Below are positions 36,954 through 41,919 of a stretch of DNA of 42,808 nt, piece by piece (position 1 is the stretch's first letter; each line of letters begins with the position of its first letter). The notes beneath the pieces were generated by a model. It was given only the letters and a program-made list of their open reading frames with translations, did no database searches and had not been told where the DNA came from. The position numbers and the translations under genes are program-made. The stretch comes from Gammaproteobacteria bacterium (lineage in GTDB: Bacteria; Pseudomonadota; Gammaproteobacteria; SZUA-152), in the NCBI GenBank assembly GCA_021647505.1, contig JAKIUN010000031.1, positions 1 through 42,808 on the forward strand, written 5' to 3'.

Positions 36954-37607
36954 ATGCCGGCCCCCCTGTCCAACTCGCTGAATGACAGGTTATTTCAGCC
37001 CTGCGGTAACACGGGTTGCCGGGCGGACTGCAACGGTTGGCGCTTGTCGTGGGGCGTGCCGTCTTCCTCAGACGAGTCAGGCATGCGCTATGGGCCCAGC
37101 GCCTTTCAGCAGCTAAGGCCGTGCAAAACAATAAGTTACCGAATTCAGCTATTTGATATGTATGTTTCGGTAGCTGTTTCGCAGCGATTTGCCATATTAA
37201 CTCAGCATCAAATTCGGTAACTTATTGTTTTGCAACTCCTAATCCCGGCACTCTATGTCCAATCTCTCCATGCCGCGCAGGCGTTTCTGGCGCCGGATGC
37301 GCATGCCCAAGTTGTTGATCTCTATTGTGGCAGCGGCCGCACCCTGCGGTGTTGGCAGCAGACTGGCGAACGCCTGCTTTATGTGAATCCACCGCGCAGT
37401 GGACTGGAACCAGCGGTGCTCGACTGGATCTGCGAAGACTACCGTCCGCAGCGCATGGCCTATCTGTCCTGTAGTGCTGGCACTCTATCGCGTGATCTGC
37501 AACGTCTGTGTGCGGCAGGTTATGGGGTGGAGCGGTTGCAACCCTACGACTTCTTTCCGCAGACCTGGCATGTGGAATGCTTGGCCATGCTGCGGCGTGA
37601 GGCGTGA
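36954..37607 (+). pseudogene. Remnant of an RNA uracil-C5 methyltransferase (TrmA/RlmC/RlmD type), copy 1
   Basis: The C-terminal catalytic part is readable: AQVVDLYCGSGRTL (SAM motif I), YVNPPRSGLEPAVLD (motif IV), AYLSCSAGTLSRDLQRL (with the nucleophile-type Cys) and QPYDFFPQTWHVECLAML. Motif I is followed almost at once by VNPPR, whereas family members have 60-70 residues between them, so an internal deletion is likely. A 113-bp inverted-repeat element (37122-37234) with an in-frame TAA at 37218 interrupts the gene before motif I. Reading frames on both sides of it agree. A second decayed copy is at 39350. Confidence 0.75.
37122..37234. mobile_element. 113-bp MITE inside the methyltransferase remnant
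   Basis: Terminal inverted repeats of 24 bp are perfect (starting TGCAAAACAATAAGTTACCG at 37122, mirror ending at 37234), with a 65-bp AT-rich interior. No transposase is encoded. It interrupts the methyltransferase reading frame. The end text AATAAGTT also occurs at the right border of the 37788-37941 and 39629-39789 repeats, so the elements may be related. Confidence 0.85.
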
Positions 37608-37635
37608 CGAAAGTTGTTTATATCGTTCCACAGCT

Positions 37636-37790: not shown

Positions 37791-37941
37791 CTTAGGTGTT
37801 TGAATAGCGAAAACATGCCTGAATTTTATGGCGTTATCAAGATGAATGGACTTGTTTTTAGGTGACTGTCGAATGTTATTGCTTGATTTTTGGCCTAATA
37901 TTGCAGGAAAATAGGGAAATTATGCTTAATGCCAATAAGTT
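37788..37941 (+). repeat. Long direct repeat, copy 1
   Basis: About 154 bp that recurs at 39629-39789 with scattered differences: it starts TTGCTTAGG, contains AGCGAAAACATGCCTGAAT and GGCCTAATATTGCAGGAAAA, and ends CCAATAAGTT. In both places it follows a methyltransferase remnant. The ending resembles an insertion-sequence end, but no transposase is next to it. Confidence 0.85.
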
Positions 37942-37975: not shown

Positions 37976-38411
37976 ATGATGAAGCCTGCGTTTACGAAAG
38001 TGAAAACAAATTATAAAACACAGTCTACACAGATACACACATGCTCAATGCATTTTCCTAATACGTGTGCAATACGAATGAGTGAAGCACTTGTCAAGGC
38101 TGATCCAAAACTTTTAGATGCCTTCAAAAGATCCTCGAAGAACAAGTGTCCTCATGGTTATATTCGTGGCGCCCAGGACTTGGCTTCTATTTTAGCTCTA
38201 CCGAGCGTATGGGGAATACGAACTCTCGGTTGGAATGCCCAGCCAAATGGATCAGCTCCCGCAAACGCTATTGGAAAAAAAGGAGTTGTTTGTTATATGA
38301 ATGTCCCTGGTTTTTAACGGTCAGGGTCATATCGATTTATGGGAAAATAACGTTGCTGTCGGGGACTCATATTGGGATGCAAAAACGATTTGGATGTGGA
38401 CATTGTCATGA
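37976..38411 (+). pseudogene. tae4: T6SS amidase effector Tae4-like, one-base frameshift
   Basis: The frame beginning at 37976 reads SMHFPNTCAIRMSEALVKAD with the catalytic-type Cys31, then CPHGYIRGAQDLASIL and KKGVVCYMNVPGF, and stops at TAA 38315-38317. Deleting one T from the TTTTT run at 38311-38315 restores a 144-residue protein continuing NGQGHIDLWENNVAVGDSYW with catalytic His118 and ending at 38411. Tae4 enzymes cut peptidoglycan peptide stems and are injected by type VI secretion. GAGGAG lies 9 nt before the ATG. The restored stop overlaps the next start as ATGA, which supports a real frame. Either a recent mutation or a sequencing error. Confidence 0.8.
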
Positions 38412-38836
38412 AAAGTTTTTCTTTTGTAATTTTTTTTACTGTCGCGGGTTGTTCATATGCCGACCCACTATTAATCTTTGACTCCAAACTGGAGCTAAAT
38501 GCAAATTGTACGCTATCAGTGACACAGCCAAAAGGTGAGATGGAAAAAATTTATTTTTTTGAGAAAGAATTATCGAAGAATTGCCGGTTTATTAATCATT
38601 CCCAAACCAATATTCCTCATGCAGAGCGGATTGGTAACTTTTATGTTTTGCTGGTCGAGACACTTGCGGAGAATAAGGAGCGATGTATTGCGAAATACAC
38701 GGCTATCGCTGTTGCAAACAATGGAGTTGTTTACCTAAGTTCAGTAACAAAAACAAGTGGTACATGCAATATTGGTAGAGAGCGAAAGGTGTTTGAATAT
38801 TTTGCACACAAGATGCAATTGTCGGAAGTTAAGTAG
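38408..38836 (+). CDS. Candidate immunity protein for the Tae4-like effector
   Basis: A 142-residue exported protein: signal peptide MKSFSFVIFFTVAGCSYA, then a mature part with several Cys residues (NANCTLSV, SKNCRFIN, KERCIAKY, SGTCNIG) and probable beta strands. Its start overlaps the restored effector stop by ATGA, and periplasmic location is what an amidase immunity protein needs. It does not resemble the known alpha-helical Tai4 proteins, so it could be a new immunity family. The role is inferred from position only. An in-frame ATG 36 nt upstream would lie before the signal peptide and is rejected. Confidence 0.65.
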   Translation: MKSFSFVIFFTVAGCSYADPLLIFDSKLELNANCTLSVTQPKGEMEKIYFFEKELSKNCRFINHSQTNIPHAERIGNFYVLLVETLAENKERCIAKYTAIAVANNGVVYLSSVTKTSGTCNIGRERKVFEYFAHKMQLSEVK

Positions 38837-39212: not shown

Positions 39213-39349
39213 CGTAGCCCTACCTAATTTTGCTCTTGAGGCGTAACGAGAGCGTTGCTGTGCAACGAACAACGCCCCGGGGGTGTAGGGTGTTGCGCGG
39301 CCCTTGCGCACAGCGTCTGCTGCAGATACGTGAATGGGTGGCGGCGTCC

Positions 39350-39592
39350 GGCGAACGTCTGCTTTATGTGAATCCACCACGCAGCGGGCTGGAGCCAGCG
39401 GTGCTCGACTAGATCTGCGAAGACTACCGTCCGCAGCGTATGGCCTATCTGTCCTGTAGTGCTGGCACTCTATCGCGTGATCTGCAACGTCTGTGTGCGG
39501 CAGGTTATGGGGTGGAGCGGTTGCAACCCTACGACTTCTTTCCGCAGACCTGGCATGTGGAATGCTTGGCCATGCTGCGGCGCGAGGAATGA
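39350..39592 (+). pseudogene. RNA uracil methyltransferase remnant, copy 2
   Basis: A second copy of the last 243 bp of the gene at 37365-37607, same length with no gaps and only a handful of substitutions. It contains VNPPRSGLEPAVLD followed by an in-frame TAG at 39409 replacing the Trp codon of copy 1, then the rest of the frame through AYLSCSAGTLSRDL and PQTWHVECLAML. Upstream text (LLQIREWVAASGERLLY) also looks like the parent gene but differs from copy 1, so copy 2 keeps some sequence lost from copy 1. Confidence 0.8.
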
Positions 39593-39628
39593 TGCAGGTT
39601 AGGGCCTGTTGGTGTTTTATTTTCGCCA

Positions 39629-39789
39629 TTGCTTAGGCGTTTGAACAGCGAAAACATGCCTGAATCATATGGTATTATCAAGATATCAAGGAAAATTGCT
39701 TGTTTTTAGGTGGTTGTCAAGTGTTATTGCCTGATTTTTGGCCTAATATTGCAGGAAAATAGGGCAGTTATGCTTAATACCAATAAGTT
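39629..39789 (+). repeat. Long direct repeat, copy 2
   Basis: Second copy of the 37788-37941 repeat, again downstream of a methyltransferase remnant. It ends with CCAATAAGTT, immediately before the hairpin cluster at 39787. Confidence 0.85.
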
Positions 39790-39972
39790 CGGCAGGTTGC
39801 GGAGCTAGCGCTCCGCAACCTGCCGAACGCCCGAGTTGACAGGAGACCTGTCGACCGCCTGCTTCGCTACCTGCGAACCAGTCGTTCGACAGGCATGTTT
39901 GCCAAGATAATTGGATTCCGCAGGCTCCATCCATTATCTTGGCAAACCCGCCTGTCAACTCGGGCGTTATAC
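39787..39972. repeat. Cluster of four nested hairpins, attC-like site 1
   Basis: Hairpin 1: 19-bp perfect stem 39787-39805 with 39810-39828, 4-nt loop. Hairpin 2: 18-bp perfect stem 39826-39843 with 39951-39968 (AACGCCCGAGTTGACAGG). Inside hairpin 2 lie hairpin 3 (8 bp, 39847-39854 with 39886-39893) and hairpin 4 (15 bp, 39897-39911 with 39933-39947). The right foot reads GGGCGTTATAC, like the R' box of integron attC sites (GTTRRRY and Vibrio-type GTTATGC), and an open frame starts 37 nt later. The long perfect stems are atypical for attC. Confidence 0.6.
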
Positions 39973-40002
39973 GTCTAAGTCACCATCTTTAAGGAGTAAA
40001 AG

Positions 40003-40668
40003 TTGGCATTACCAAAATGGGATAAAAATAAAATTTTCGCGAATTTTATCAAACGGCAAGCAAGAAATAGGCTTGAAGAATTTCGCCAGTATACCCTTGA
40101 GATTGAGTCAAAATTTAATTCCGATAAAAATGCTTTATCAAATTCTTATGATGAGGCTGTTAAGGGGTTATCAGAGGATGAAATAAGAGAGGTGGATGAC
40201 TATTTTCCTGATAATTATTACATGATTGAAGAAATATACATTGATATGTATAGAAAATCCACATTAGTTTCTGTTTATTCATTTTTAGAAAATTCGATGA
40301 ATGATCTTTGCAGATGTTTAAGTTTTAGACAAAATTACCCCGTCATGCTAAATGACCTTAGAAATGAAGGTATTGTAAGAGCGAAAGACTACCTTGAAAA
40401 GTTGGCTAAAATTGATTTTTCCGCAATAAACGGAGAGTGGAGCCACATGAAGACTCTAAATAAAATTCGTAACTGCATTGTTCATTCAGAGGGTGATATT
40501 AAATCTTCGAAAAACTCATCTCAGTTAGAGAATATTGTTGCAAATAACCCAAGTCTTTCCCTAAGGAATGAGCGAAATATCAAGATAGAAAGAGAATATA
40601 TTGATTTTAGCATTAATAAAGTGGAAGAGTTTCTTGACAAGCTCTATCAGCAGGCATTTGCAAATTAA
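40003..40668 (+). CDS. HEPN-domain protein (cassette gene)
   Basis: A 221-residue protein with an HEPN-like helical fold and the RX4H motif typical of HEPN ribonucleases: LNKIRNCIVHSEG, Arg156 and His161. It starts with TTG, with AAGGAG 6 nt upstream. AT content is much higher than in the core genes. HEPN RNases act in toxin-antitoxin and phage-defence systems; no paired nucleotidyltransferase (MNT) antitoxin is present, so self-control or a single-gene mode is possible. The gene is flanked by attC-like site 1 (39972) and site 2 (40664), which supports a gene cassette. Confidence 0.7.
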   Translation: MALPKWDKNKIFANFIKRQARNRLEEFRQYTLEIESKFNSDKNALSNSYDEAVKGLSEDEIREVDDYFPDNYYMIEEIYIDMYRKSTLVSVYSFLENSMNDLCRCLSFRQNYPVMLNDLRNEGIVRAKDYLEKLAKIDFSAINGEWSHMKTLNKIRNCIVHSEGDIKSSKNSSQLENIVANNPSLSLRNERNIKIEREYIDFSINKVEEFLDKLYQQAFAN

Positions 40669-40757
40669 ACGTCCAACAATCACATGCACTCGGGCAGCAA
40701 AAAGCGCGGCTCGTTCCTCGCTATGCTTTTTGCTGCCGGTGATGTGAGGCGTGATTC
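40664..40757. other. attC-like site 2
   Basis: The stop of the HEPN gene overlaps AAACGTCC, followed by CACAT (40681-40685) and a 13-bp stem GGCAGCAAAAAGC (40693-40705) pairing with GCTTTTTGCTGCC (40725-40737), then ATGTG (40742-40746) pairing with CACAT and a right foot GAGGCGTGATT. The foldable layout is attC-like, but the R' box (GTGATTC) is degenerate. Confidence 0.5.
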
Positions 40758-40774: not shown

Positions 40775-40963
40775 ATGAGTACAGCAAAAGAAGAAGTGAG
40801 GGCACTTCTGGATAAACTCCCGGACGATTGTTCTCTGGAGGATGTCCAATATCATATTTACGTTGTAGAAAAGATCAACAGAGGAATCGAGCGTGCCGGG
40901 AAGGAAGGGACTTTTGGTCAGGATGAGGTGGAAAGGAAGCTCAGTAAATGGACCTCGAAGTAG
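40775..40963 (+). CDS. Antitoxin of a RelE/ParE-type module
   Basis: A 62-residue protein: KEEVRALLDKLPDDCSLEDV, then QYHIYVVEKINRGIERAGKE and GQDEVERKLSKW. This is the common small partner of RelE/ParE toxins. The toxin gene overlaps its end by 16 nt (40948-40963). GAGGTG lies 5-6 nt before the ATG. Type II modules of this size are frequent in chromosomal integron cassettes, where they stabilise the array. Confidence 0.8.
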   Translation: MSTAKEEVRALLDKLPDDCSLEDVQYHIYVVEKINRGIERAGKEGTFGQDEVERKLSKWTSK

Positions 40964-41262
40964 AATGGTCTCCTGAGGCAACGGAAGACCTCGAATCAAT
41001 CGCGGAATATATTGCGCGAGATTCAGAGTTTTACGCCCGAGCAATTGTTACAGAAGTATTGGCAGTTTCTCGAAGTATCCGCGAATTCCCTTTGATCGGT
41101 CGTATTGTGCCAGAGATTGATAATGATCGTATACGGGAACGGCTCGTATATAGCTATCGTCTGGTATATGGAATTGAGTCTCAGCGGATCTTGATTGTGG
41201 CTGTTATCCATGGCAAGCGTTTGCTGGAAAACGTCTCGGAACGATTTGATGAGTGCACATAA
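40948..41262 (+). CDS. RelE/ParE-family toxin
   Basis: A 104-residue toxin of the RelE/ParE fold: VEWSPEATEDLESIAEYIAR, then SIREFPLIGRIVPEIDND, RERLVYSYRLVYGIESQRIL and VAVIHGKRLLEN. The segments P-x-GRxVPE and the terminal HGxR-like HGKR are family hallmarks. RelE members cut ribosome-bound mRNA and ParE members poison gyrase; sequence alone does not decide. The stop codon overlaps the start of attC-like site 3. Confidence 0.87.
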   Translation: MDLEVEWSPEATEDLESIAEYIARDSEFYARAIVTEVLAVSRSIREFPLIGRIVPEIDNDRIRERLVYSYRLVYGIESQRILIVAVIHGKRLLENVSERFDECT

Positions 41263-41329
41263 CCAGACGCTGCACCTGACCGCTCCAGTCGCAGGCTCCT
41301 TTCGCGGCAGGTAAGCTTGGTCGTTAGCC
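41258..41329. other. attC-like site 3
   Basis: The best attC candidate. It begins CATAACCAGACGCTGCACC, has the paired segments ACCTGACCGC and GCGGCAGGT, and ends AGCTTGGTCGTTAGCC with the R' box at 41323-41329. Overlap of the toxin stop with the left foot and a start codon 9 nt after the right foot fit the compact layout of integron cassettes. The box GTTAGCC deviates from GTTRRRY at one base. Confidence 0.75.
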
Positions 41330-41337
41330 AAAAAAAT

Positions 41338-41919
41338 ATGAACAGCACACTAAAAAATGAACTTATCAGGCTTGCTGACGAAGATCAGGCTTTAATTGAA
41401 AAATTATCAAATACTGGTGAGTTAGCAAATTATAAGGATGAGCCACATCCAGAAATAAAGAAAATATTTGAAAGAAACACCAGGCGAGCAAAGGAGATAA
41501 TTTCAGCTTTTGGTTGGCCAACCATCAGTAGTGTAGGTGAAAAAGCATCAGACGCTATGTATTTAATTGTTCAACACTCCGTTTTGGAGCCAGAGTTCAT
41601 GCAATCCTGCGTTCCTCTTCTTGAGGAACAAATTAAAAATAATGAAGCAAAAGGGTGGCAATTGGCATTTCTGCAAGATCGAACATTAATGCAACAAGGG
41701 AAACCGCAAATATATGGAACACAGCATGATGTAAATAAAGATGGGATCATGGAACCATATGAAATACAAAACCCAGAAACAGTGAATGAAAAGCGGCTTT
41801 CATTAGGGCTGGAAAGGCTAGAGGAAAAAACAAAAGAACTTCAAGAAAGGTATGATGCTACTCAGGCTGCAAATGAAGCTAGGAAATTAAAAATGGCTAA
41901 CGAAAACGAATTAAGTTAG
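41338..41919 (+). CDS. DUF6624-like cassette protein
   Basis: A 193-residue protein resembling the DUF6624 family: NELIRLADEDQALIEKLSN, FGWPTISSVGEKASDAMYLI, VQHSVLEPEFMQSCVPLLEE, QLAFLQDRTLMQQGKPQIYG and TQHDVNKDGIMEPYEI. Function is unknown. The C-terminus (about 150-190) is charged and coiled-coil-like. The ATG comes 9 nt after attC-like site 3; no ribosome-binding site is visible, as in some cassettes. No attC-like site follows; instead remnants of other elements begin. Confidence 0.75.
   Translation: MNSTLKNELIRLADEDQALIEKLSNTGELANYKDEPHPEIKKIFERNTRRAKEIISAFGWPTISSVGEKASDAMYLIVQHSVLEPEFMQSCVPLLEEQIKNNEAKGWQLAFLQDRTLMQQGKPQIYGTQHDVNKDGIMEPYEIQNPETVNEKRLSLGLERLEEKTKELQERYDATQAANEARKLKMANENELS

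Follow-up and report, generated by a model that had tools for sequence, protein, structure and literature searches.

A stand-alone HEPN protein encoded by an integron cassette of a gammaproteobacterium: a candidate abortive-infection ribonuclease

Integron cassettes that encode HEPN proteins are a kind already known, listed in 2013, and cassettes for phage defence were reported in 2025. Anantharaman et al. (2013; PMC3710099) list Vpc_cass2 (PDB 3jrt), a HEPN protein from an integron cassette, as active, and they characterize active HEPN RNases by an Rx4-6H motif together with an acidic residue in a helix that precedes it. Carriage of phage defences by integron cassettes is reported in PMC12409362 and PMC12724215 (Darracq/Littner et al.; Kieffer et al. 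2025; Getz et al.). We analyzed a stretch of 42,808 nucleotides (hereafter the window) on contig JAKIUN010000031.1 of a gammaproteobacterial genome (GCA_021647505.1; lineage SZUA-152). A previous reading of its sequence had proposed that a single HEPN protein, presumably an active RNase lacking the usual MNT antitoxin and resembling no named HEPN family, is carried there as a gene cassette for phage defence. Its interpretation is partly supported overall. It needs correcting because PMC3710099 had described HEPN integron cassettes in 2013, although 3jrt is not detectably of the same sequence family. The literature searched on HEPN proteins and integrons contained no experimental test of the family to which the window protein belongs.

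The HEPN gene (40003-40668; this and all other genes and recombination sites of the window given below lie on the plus strand) is an intact open reading frame for 221 residues. Its start codon is the TTG at 40003 and its stop codon is at 40666-40668. A Shine-Dalgarno-like AAGGAG read from the sequence (39991-39996) is located 6 nt upstream of the TTG, and this start agrees with those of the closest homologues (M-ALPK, M-LPK or M-PLPK). The HEPN gene was confirmed by our analysis to be an integron cassette, in so far as sequence features identify one: an attI-like site, an attC site, the gene and a second attC site follow each other. The attC sites were located with a scanner based on our own rule set, not with IntegronFinder. 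A 91-nt block ending ...AATAAGTT is present twice in the window, as site A (37851-37941, crossover GTT 37939-37941), the upstream tandem copy, and as site B (39699-39789). The conserved block of site B ends at GTT 39787-39789, and the sequence beyond it varies among the genomic copies. A perfect 19-bp hairpin without assigned strand (39787-39828) lies between site B and the left attC, and a near-identical stretch also occurs in contig C46 of the genome. The left attC (39822-39972, GCCGAAC ... GTTATAC) has a stem score that was reached by 0 of 60 dinucleotide shuffles.

The right attC (40671-40757, GTCCAAC ... GTGATTC) shares 86% identity with an attC-like sequence elsewhere in the genome, in contig C75. 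It has no GTT core but GTG instead; its counterpart in C75 has GTT, the C75 site ending GCGTTAT where the window site reads GCGTGAT. With its right core changed, the HEPN cassette may be locked to the cassette that follows it, which encodes a ParE-family toxin (40948-41262; PF05016, 3.6e-17). The GTG core could hold the HEPN and ParE cassettes together in this way, or it could be an assembly error. A 62-residue open reading frame (40775-40963) overlaps the ParE gene and by position is likely the ParE antitoxin; it has no Pfam match over the cut-off and no NCBIfam match. Behind the ParE cassette are a further attC (41257-41329, ACATAAC ... GTTAGCC) and a cassette for a DUF6624 protein (41317-41919), for which the ATG at 41340 is the likelier start. 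Only one integron integrase gene of the genome is intact (C39:7934-8887, 445 bits, over the cut-off), and it does not adjoin the window array.

Upstream of the array, an RNA methyltransferase gene that is longer in the sibling genome G002 (a 374-residue open reading frame) is broken and partly duplicated (37230-37607 and 39258-39592). Its 3' end precedes both attI copies; the duplicated 3' end before site B (39347-39592) is 95% identical to 37365-37615. The first gene at site A encodes a Tae4-like amidase (37976-38317; PF14113, 5.2e-7, over the cut-off), and it is followed by a gene for a 154-residue protein with a signal-peptide-like start (38372-38836), whose presumed role as the immunity partner is suggested by its position. 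These two genes (37976-38836) form the first cassette at site A. The same locus in the sibling genomes G001 and G002 consists of attI followed by this Tae4-like gene pair, and the stretches taken from it hold no sequence matching the HEPN array; therefore, the array is accessory.

The RX4H motif noticed in the sequence-only reading is R156-N-C-I-V-H161, with CGT as the codon for R156 (40468-40470) and CAT for H161 (40483-40485). In a single protein such a motif could be a chance match, but its conservation across the homologues shows that it is not. E96 (40288-40290), R156 and H161 are identical in all 31 rows of the homologue alignment, and they are the only invariant columns of alignment A6, which has 28 homologue rows. 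The 31-row set omits L066 (start lost), L073 (broken frame), L061 (a near copy of L060), L032 (its annotated frame differs), the weaker matches L020-L027 of a class-wide genome search (positive in 8 of 369 genomes, one of them the genome of the window), and most of the plasmid records (44 and 100 records), from which 18 plasmid loci were fetched and 17 used. A6 additionally omits the near copies L030, L033 and L035. Locus L019 came from a search of relatives, in which 2 of 57 matched, again counting the own genome. E96 is located in the predicted helix 68-110, a core helix earlier than that of the RX4H motif. The three residues correspond to those given for active HEPN RNases in PMC3710099, and the protein may be regarded as a putative RNase. 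Compared with its 72%-identical homologue L062, the gene differs at 23%, 13% and 49% of the first, second and third codon positions, respectively; therefore, the protein has been under selection.

The AlphaFold2 model (pLDDT 91.2, pTM 0.85), computed from an input alignment of 12 proteins, contains a long N-terminal helix (residues 8-53), core helices at 68-110, 123-134 and 139-162, a last helix at 197-220, and a small beta hairpin. Foldseek returned no structure at E<=0.001 with this model, and a search of a viral fold library gave nothing significant. When the Foldseek candidates were aligned with VIA-align, ranks 1-14 were all solved structures of HEPN proteins (Z 9.3-7.9), including MntA-HepT, YutE, HEPN-MNT toxins and Csm6, and unrelated rows began at 7.2. 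For a protein made of helices, a Z of about 9 is a modest value. Because ranks 1-14 belong to one superfamily and the residues above are invariant, we regard the predicted HEPN superfamily fold as secure, and the fold expected in the sequence-only reading is thus borne out by structure prediction.

Homologues are spread across bacteria, plasmids and phages. One profile scan of genomes gave 12 loci, one profile scan of viruses gave 1 locus, and a scan with the homologue from an E. coli plasmid added 2 viral loci. There were 44 plasmid records at E<=0.01 and 1 phage record. When the L060 gene was used in a near search of 5,426 genomes of E. coli, a single match was obtained, on a plasmid. No relative was found by scanning the genome contigs with the window protein or the viral contigs with the Halomonas and Bacillus-phage homologues. 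The nearest homologues are in metagenome-assembled genomes (MAGs) of Methylococcaceae (72%), Oceanisphaera (63%) and a cyanobacterium (59%); therefore, horizontal transfer is indicated.

Homologues in several bacteria that are not related to each other also have attC flanks. An attC-like flank on at least one side, at no more than 1 of 60 shuffles, was found at 5 of the 31 loci (the window, L063, L070, L071 and L037). L014 (5 of 60 shuffles) was accepted as an integron by the likeness of its site to that of L037, and L062 was included after visual inspection alone, without support from the scanner. A candidate attC at L019 (2 of 60 shuffles, weak energy) was judged false. On the 31-row tree, with L062 and L014 counted among the integron loci, 5 changes of integron setting are required, and at least 4 are forced by supported branches. 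Relatives have thus been captured by integrons on several separate occasions. At the Oceanisphaera locus L063, 15 attC-like sites share the strand of the gene, compared with 1, 4, 0 and 1 when the sequence was shuffled. This array also contains a second HEPN gene (896-1468 of L063), which is over the PF18735 cut-off. At L071, on a contig binned as Pacearchaeota, the homologue is flanked by attC, and OLD/AriA-like and RES-domain genes are on the same contig; both an archaeal origin and wrong binning are possible.

The neighbours of the homologues were noted locus by locus. One phage contig has the homologue after PARIS-like AriA and AriB genes, and plasmid homologues adjoin an AbiJ gene, a PD-T4-5/AbiD-type gene, restriction genes, or annotated ToxN/AbiQ and Abi-family genes. 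In two Bacillus-type phage loci, it is bordered by an HNH gene on one side and by terminase-like genes on the other. Phages usually have HNH genes near the terminase. The HNH gene, which occurs beside L011, L019, L028 and L074, was considered as a conserved partner and dropped, being absent at the window and at most loci. In the neighbourhoods inspected, no partner gene recurs beside the homologues, and the window protein is most simply a single-gene system. The proposed link to integrons and defence genes stands for some homologues; several loci, such as L033, L064 and L067, have no close defence neighbour. Conserved neighbours unrelated to defence, which the sequence-only reading had named as evidence against itself, were not seen in the loci inspected.

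We consider it probable that the protein of the window cassette is a stand-alone HEPN ribonuclease and that it acts through abortive infection. HEPN RNases generally work as dimers, and the window protein is probably a dimer as well. Its active site would be composed of E96, from an earlier core helix, and of R156 and H161, which are located where another core helix ends. As the cassette contains no antitoxin, the enzyme is presumably restrained by its own long N-terminal helix (8-53) or through its state of assembly. It would be switched on by a phage product or by damage from the infection, and the active enzyme would cleave tRNA, rRNA or mRNA and arrest the infected cell. Several points count against this explanation. 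The HEPN toxins of toxin-antitoxin pairs carry the same signature, the Foldseek search was negative at E<=0.001, the Z scores are modest, and a close defence neighbour is missing at several loci. Furthermore, a scan of the plus strand from 39550 to 40100 found no sigma-70-like consensus promoter, which makes expression less certain.

A stress or dormancy RNase, which would slow translation under stress and have no specific anti-phage role, would carry the same catalytic signature, and such a function was proposed for integron HEPN proteins in 2013 (PMC3710099). We regard this as unlikely, because a role in conflict fits better with the presence of some homologues in phages and beside phage-defence genes. 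Alternatively, the protein could be the toxin of a toxin-antitoxin pair with an antitoxin that has escaped recognition, either a small RNA or the small open reading frame of the next cassette, joined to the HEPN gene by the mutated attC. The GTG core would allow the HEPN and ParE cassettes to move as one unit. However, the small frame overlaps parE, as expected of the antitoxin of parE itself, the gene next downstream is different in the nearest homologues L062 and L063, and the neighbourhoods seen contain no conserved partner gene. Such a pair is therefore rather improbable.

The cassette could also be a silent or decaying passenger with no current function. The missing consensus promoter between 39550 and 40100, the changed core of the neighbouring attC, and the repeats and broken gene copies around the cassette point in this direction, whereas the intact frame, the intact catalytic residues and the codon-position bias relative to L062 do not, and we give this reading little credence. 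Finally, the match to the PADLOC profile RTasHEPN (1.1e-5) would be expected of an effector of a reverse-transcriptase defence system (DRT) whose reverse transcriptase is encoded elsewhere. This match covers only profile positions 57-141 of 148, and the genome has its two reverse transcriptase matches away from the window contig, on C116 and C96, one of them with an internal stop, which makes a DRT effector very improbable. Among these possibilities, the stand-alone abortive-infection ribonuclease remains our preferred explanation.

The attI-like block is not limited to the window. Eleven dispersed blocks with a visible end are present in the genome (two in the window and one each at C46, C46b, C93, C1, C28, C67, C111, C88 and C39). 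When aligned at their ends, the copies are common up to GTT and then diverge, except that C46b continues like the window copy. One copy adjoins the only intact integrase gene, in C39. This position and the sharp end at GTT are the reasons for calling the block attI, and the conserved 91-nt block appears from its sequence to behave as an attI site. A 47-residue integrase remnant is present at C88; at the other 9 of the 11 copies, no integrase gene was found within the flank examined, which extended to about 1.5 kb at most. The genus has comparable blocks in 5 of 7 genomes, among them the genome of the window, with 6 copies in G001 and 4 in G002.

Several of the first genes at these sites resemble conflict genes. 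C28 has a second, unrelated HEPN-like protein with the motif RNNIAH (L078, 4538-5110), C46 an AAA_21/AriA-like protein, C111 a PDC-S49-like protein, and the window a Tae4-like protein. An octopine-dehydrogenase-like protein is encoded at C93, an SDH-type protease at C39, a protein with a weak PD-(D/E)XK match at C1, and a protein without a PADLOC match at C67. The copy at C88 looks empty because the nearest gene, for a CDP-alcohol phosphatidyltransferase, is on the other strand. We tentatively suggest, while considering it somewhat doubtful, that this lineage keeps many scattered chromosomal attI sites, that a single integrase serves them in trans, and that they are landing pads where conflict genes are taken up, such as those of the window HEPN protein, the second HEPN-like protein, the AriA/OLD-like ATPase, the PDC-S49-like protein and the Tae4-like effector. 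If so, the window HEPN gene would be one of several defence genes in a dispersed, exchangeable defence system and not in one array, and integron capture would take place at many chromosomal positions instead of one. Among the results of our literature search, no description of dispersed or integrase-less attI sites was recognised.

The absence of a named family, as claimed in the sequence-only reading, holds in part. The window protein is below the cut-off of its best Pfam match, PF18735 (HEPN_RiboL-PSP; 16.1 bits, gathering cut-off 28.4), and has no L-PSP fusion. However, weak but real links exist: 7 of the 12 members of alignment A5, including the window protein, match PF18735 at E<=0.1 (best 9.3e-8), and 11 of 12 match RTasHEPN, the DRT-associated HEPN profile of PADLOC (best 2.8e-8). 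The family is thus weakly covered by these two profiles. PHROGs and NCBIfam searches with the window protein gave nothing useful. The RTasHEPN match of the window protein falls on the RX4H half of the domain. The window gene differs from DRT systems in having no adjoining reverse transcriptase (no PF00078 match on the window contig), and membership was rejected.

The best structural match is HepT of MntA-HepT, a type VII toxin-antitoxin system (Z 9.3, rmsd 3.7-4.0 over 129-132 residues). The window protein differs from HepT in its longer N-terminal helix, its lack of an NCBIfam match and its lack of an MNT partner. The absence of this antitoxin, as previously proposed, was verified: PF01909 has no match on the window contig, and its matches in the genome are confined to C38, C10 and C105. 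Membership of MntA-HepT was therefore rejected. The cassette protein 3jrt shares with the window protein its HEPN nature and its carriage by an integron; its structural alignment to the model is weak (Z 6.0, rmsd 8.1, 149 residues), and a sequence relation was rejected, as it was absent at E<=10 with three queries. With the window cassette, the putative RNases traded by integrons gain a single-gene HEPN family that is widespread, having members in bacteria, in phages and on contigs binned as archaea. The cassette also lends itself to testing whether defence by a small HEPN protein is possible without an antitoxin. In its organization, the window cassette is like the phage-defence cassettes of integrons, which carry a single small defence-type gene.
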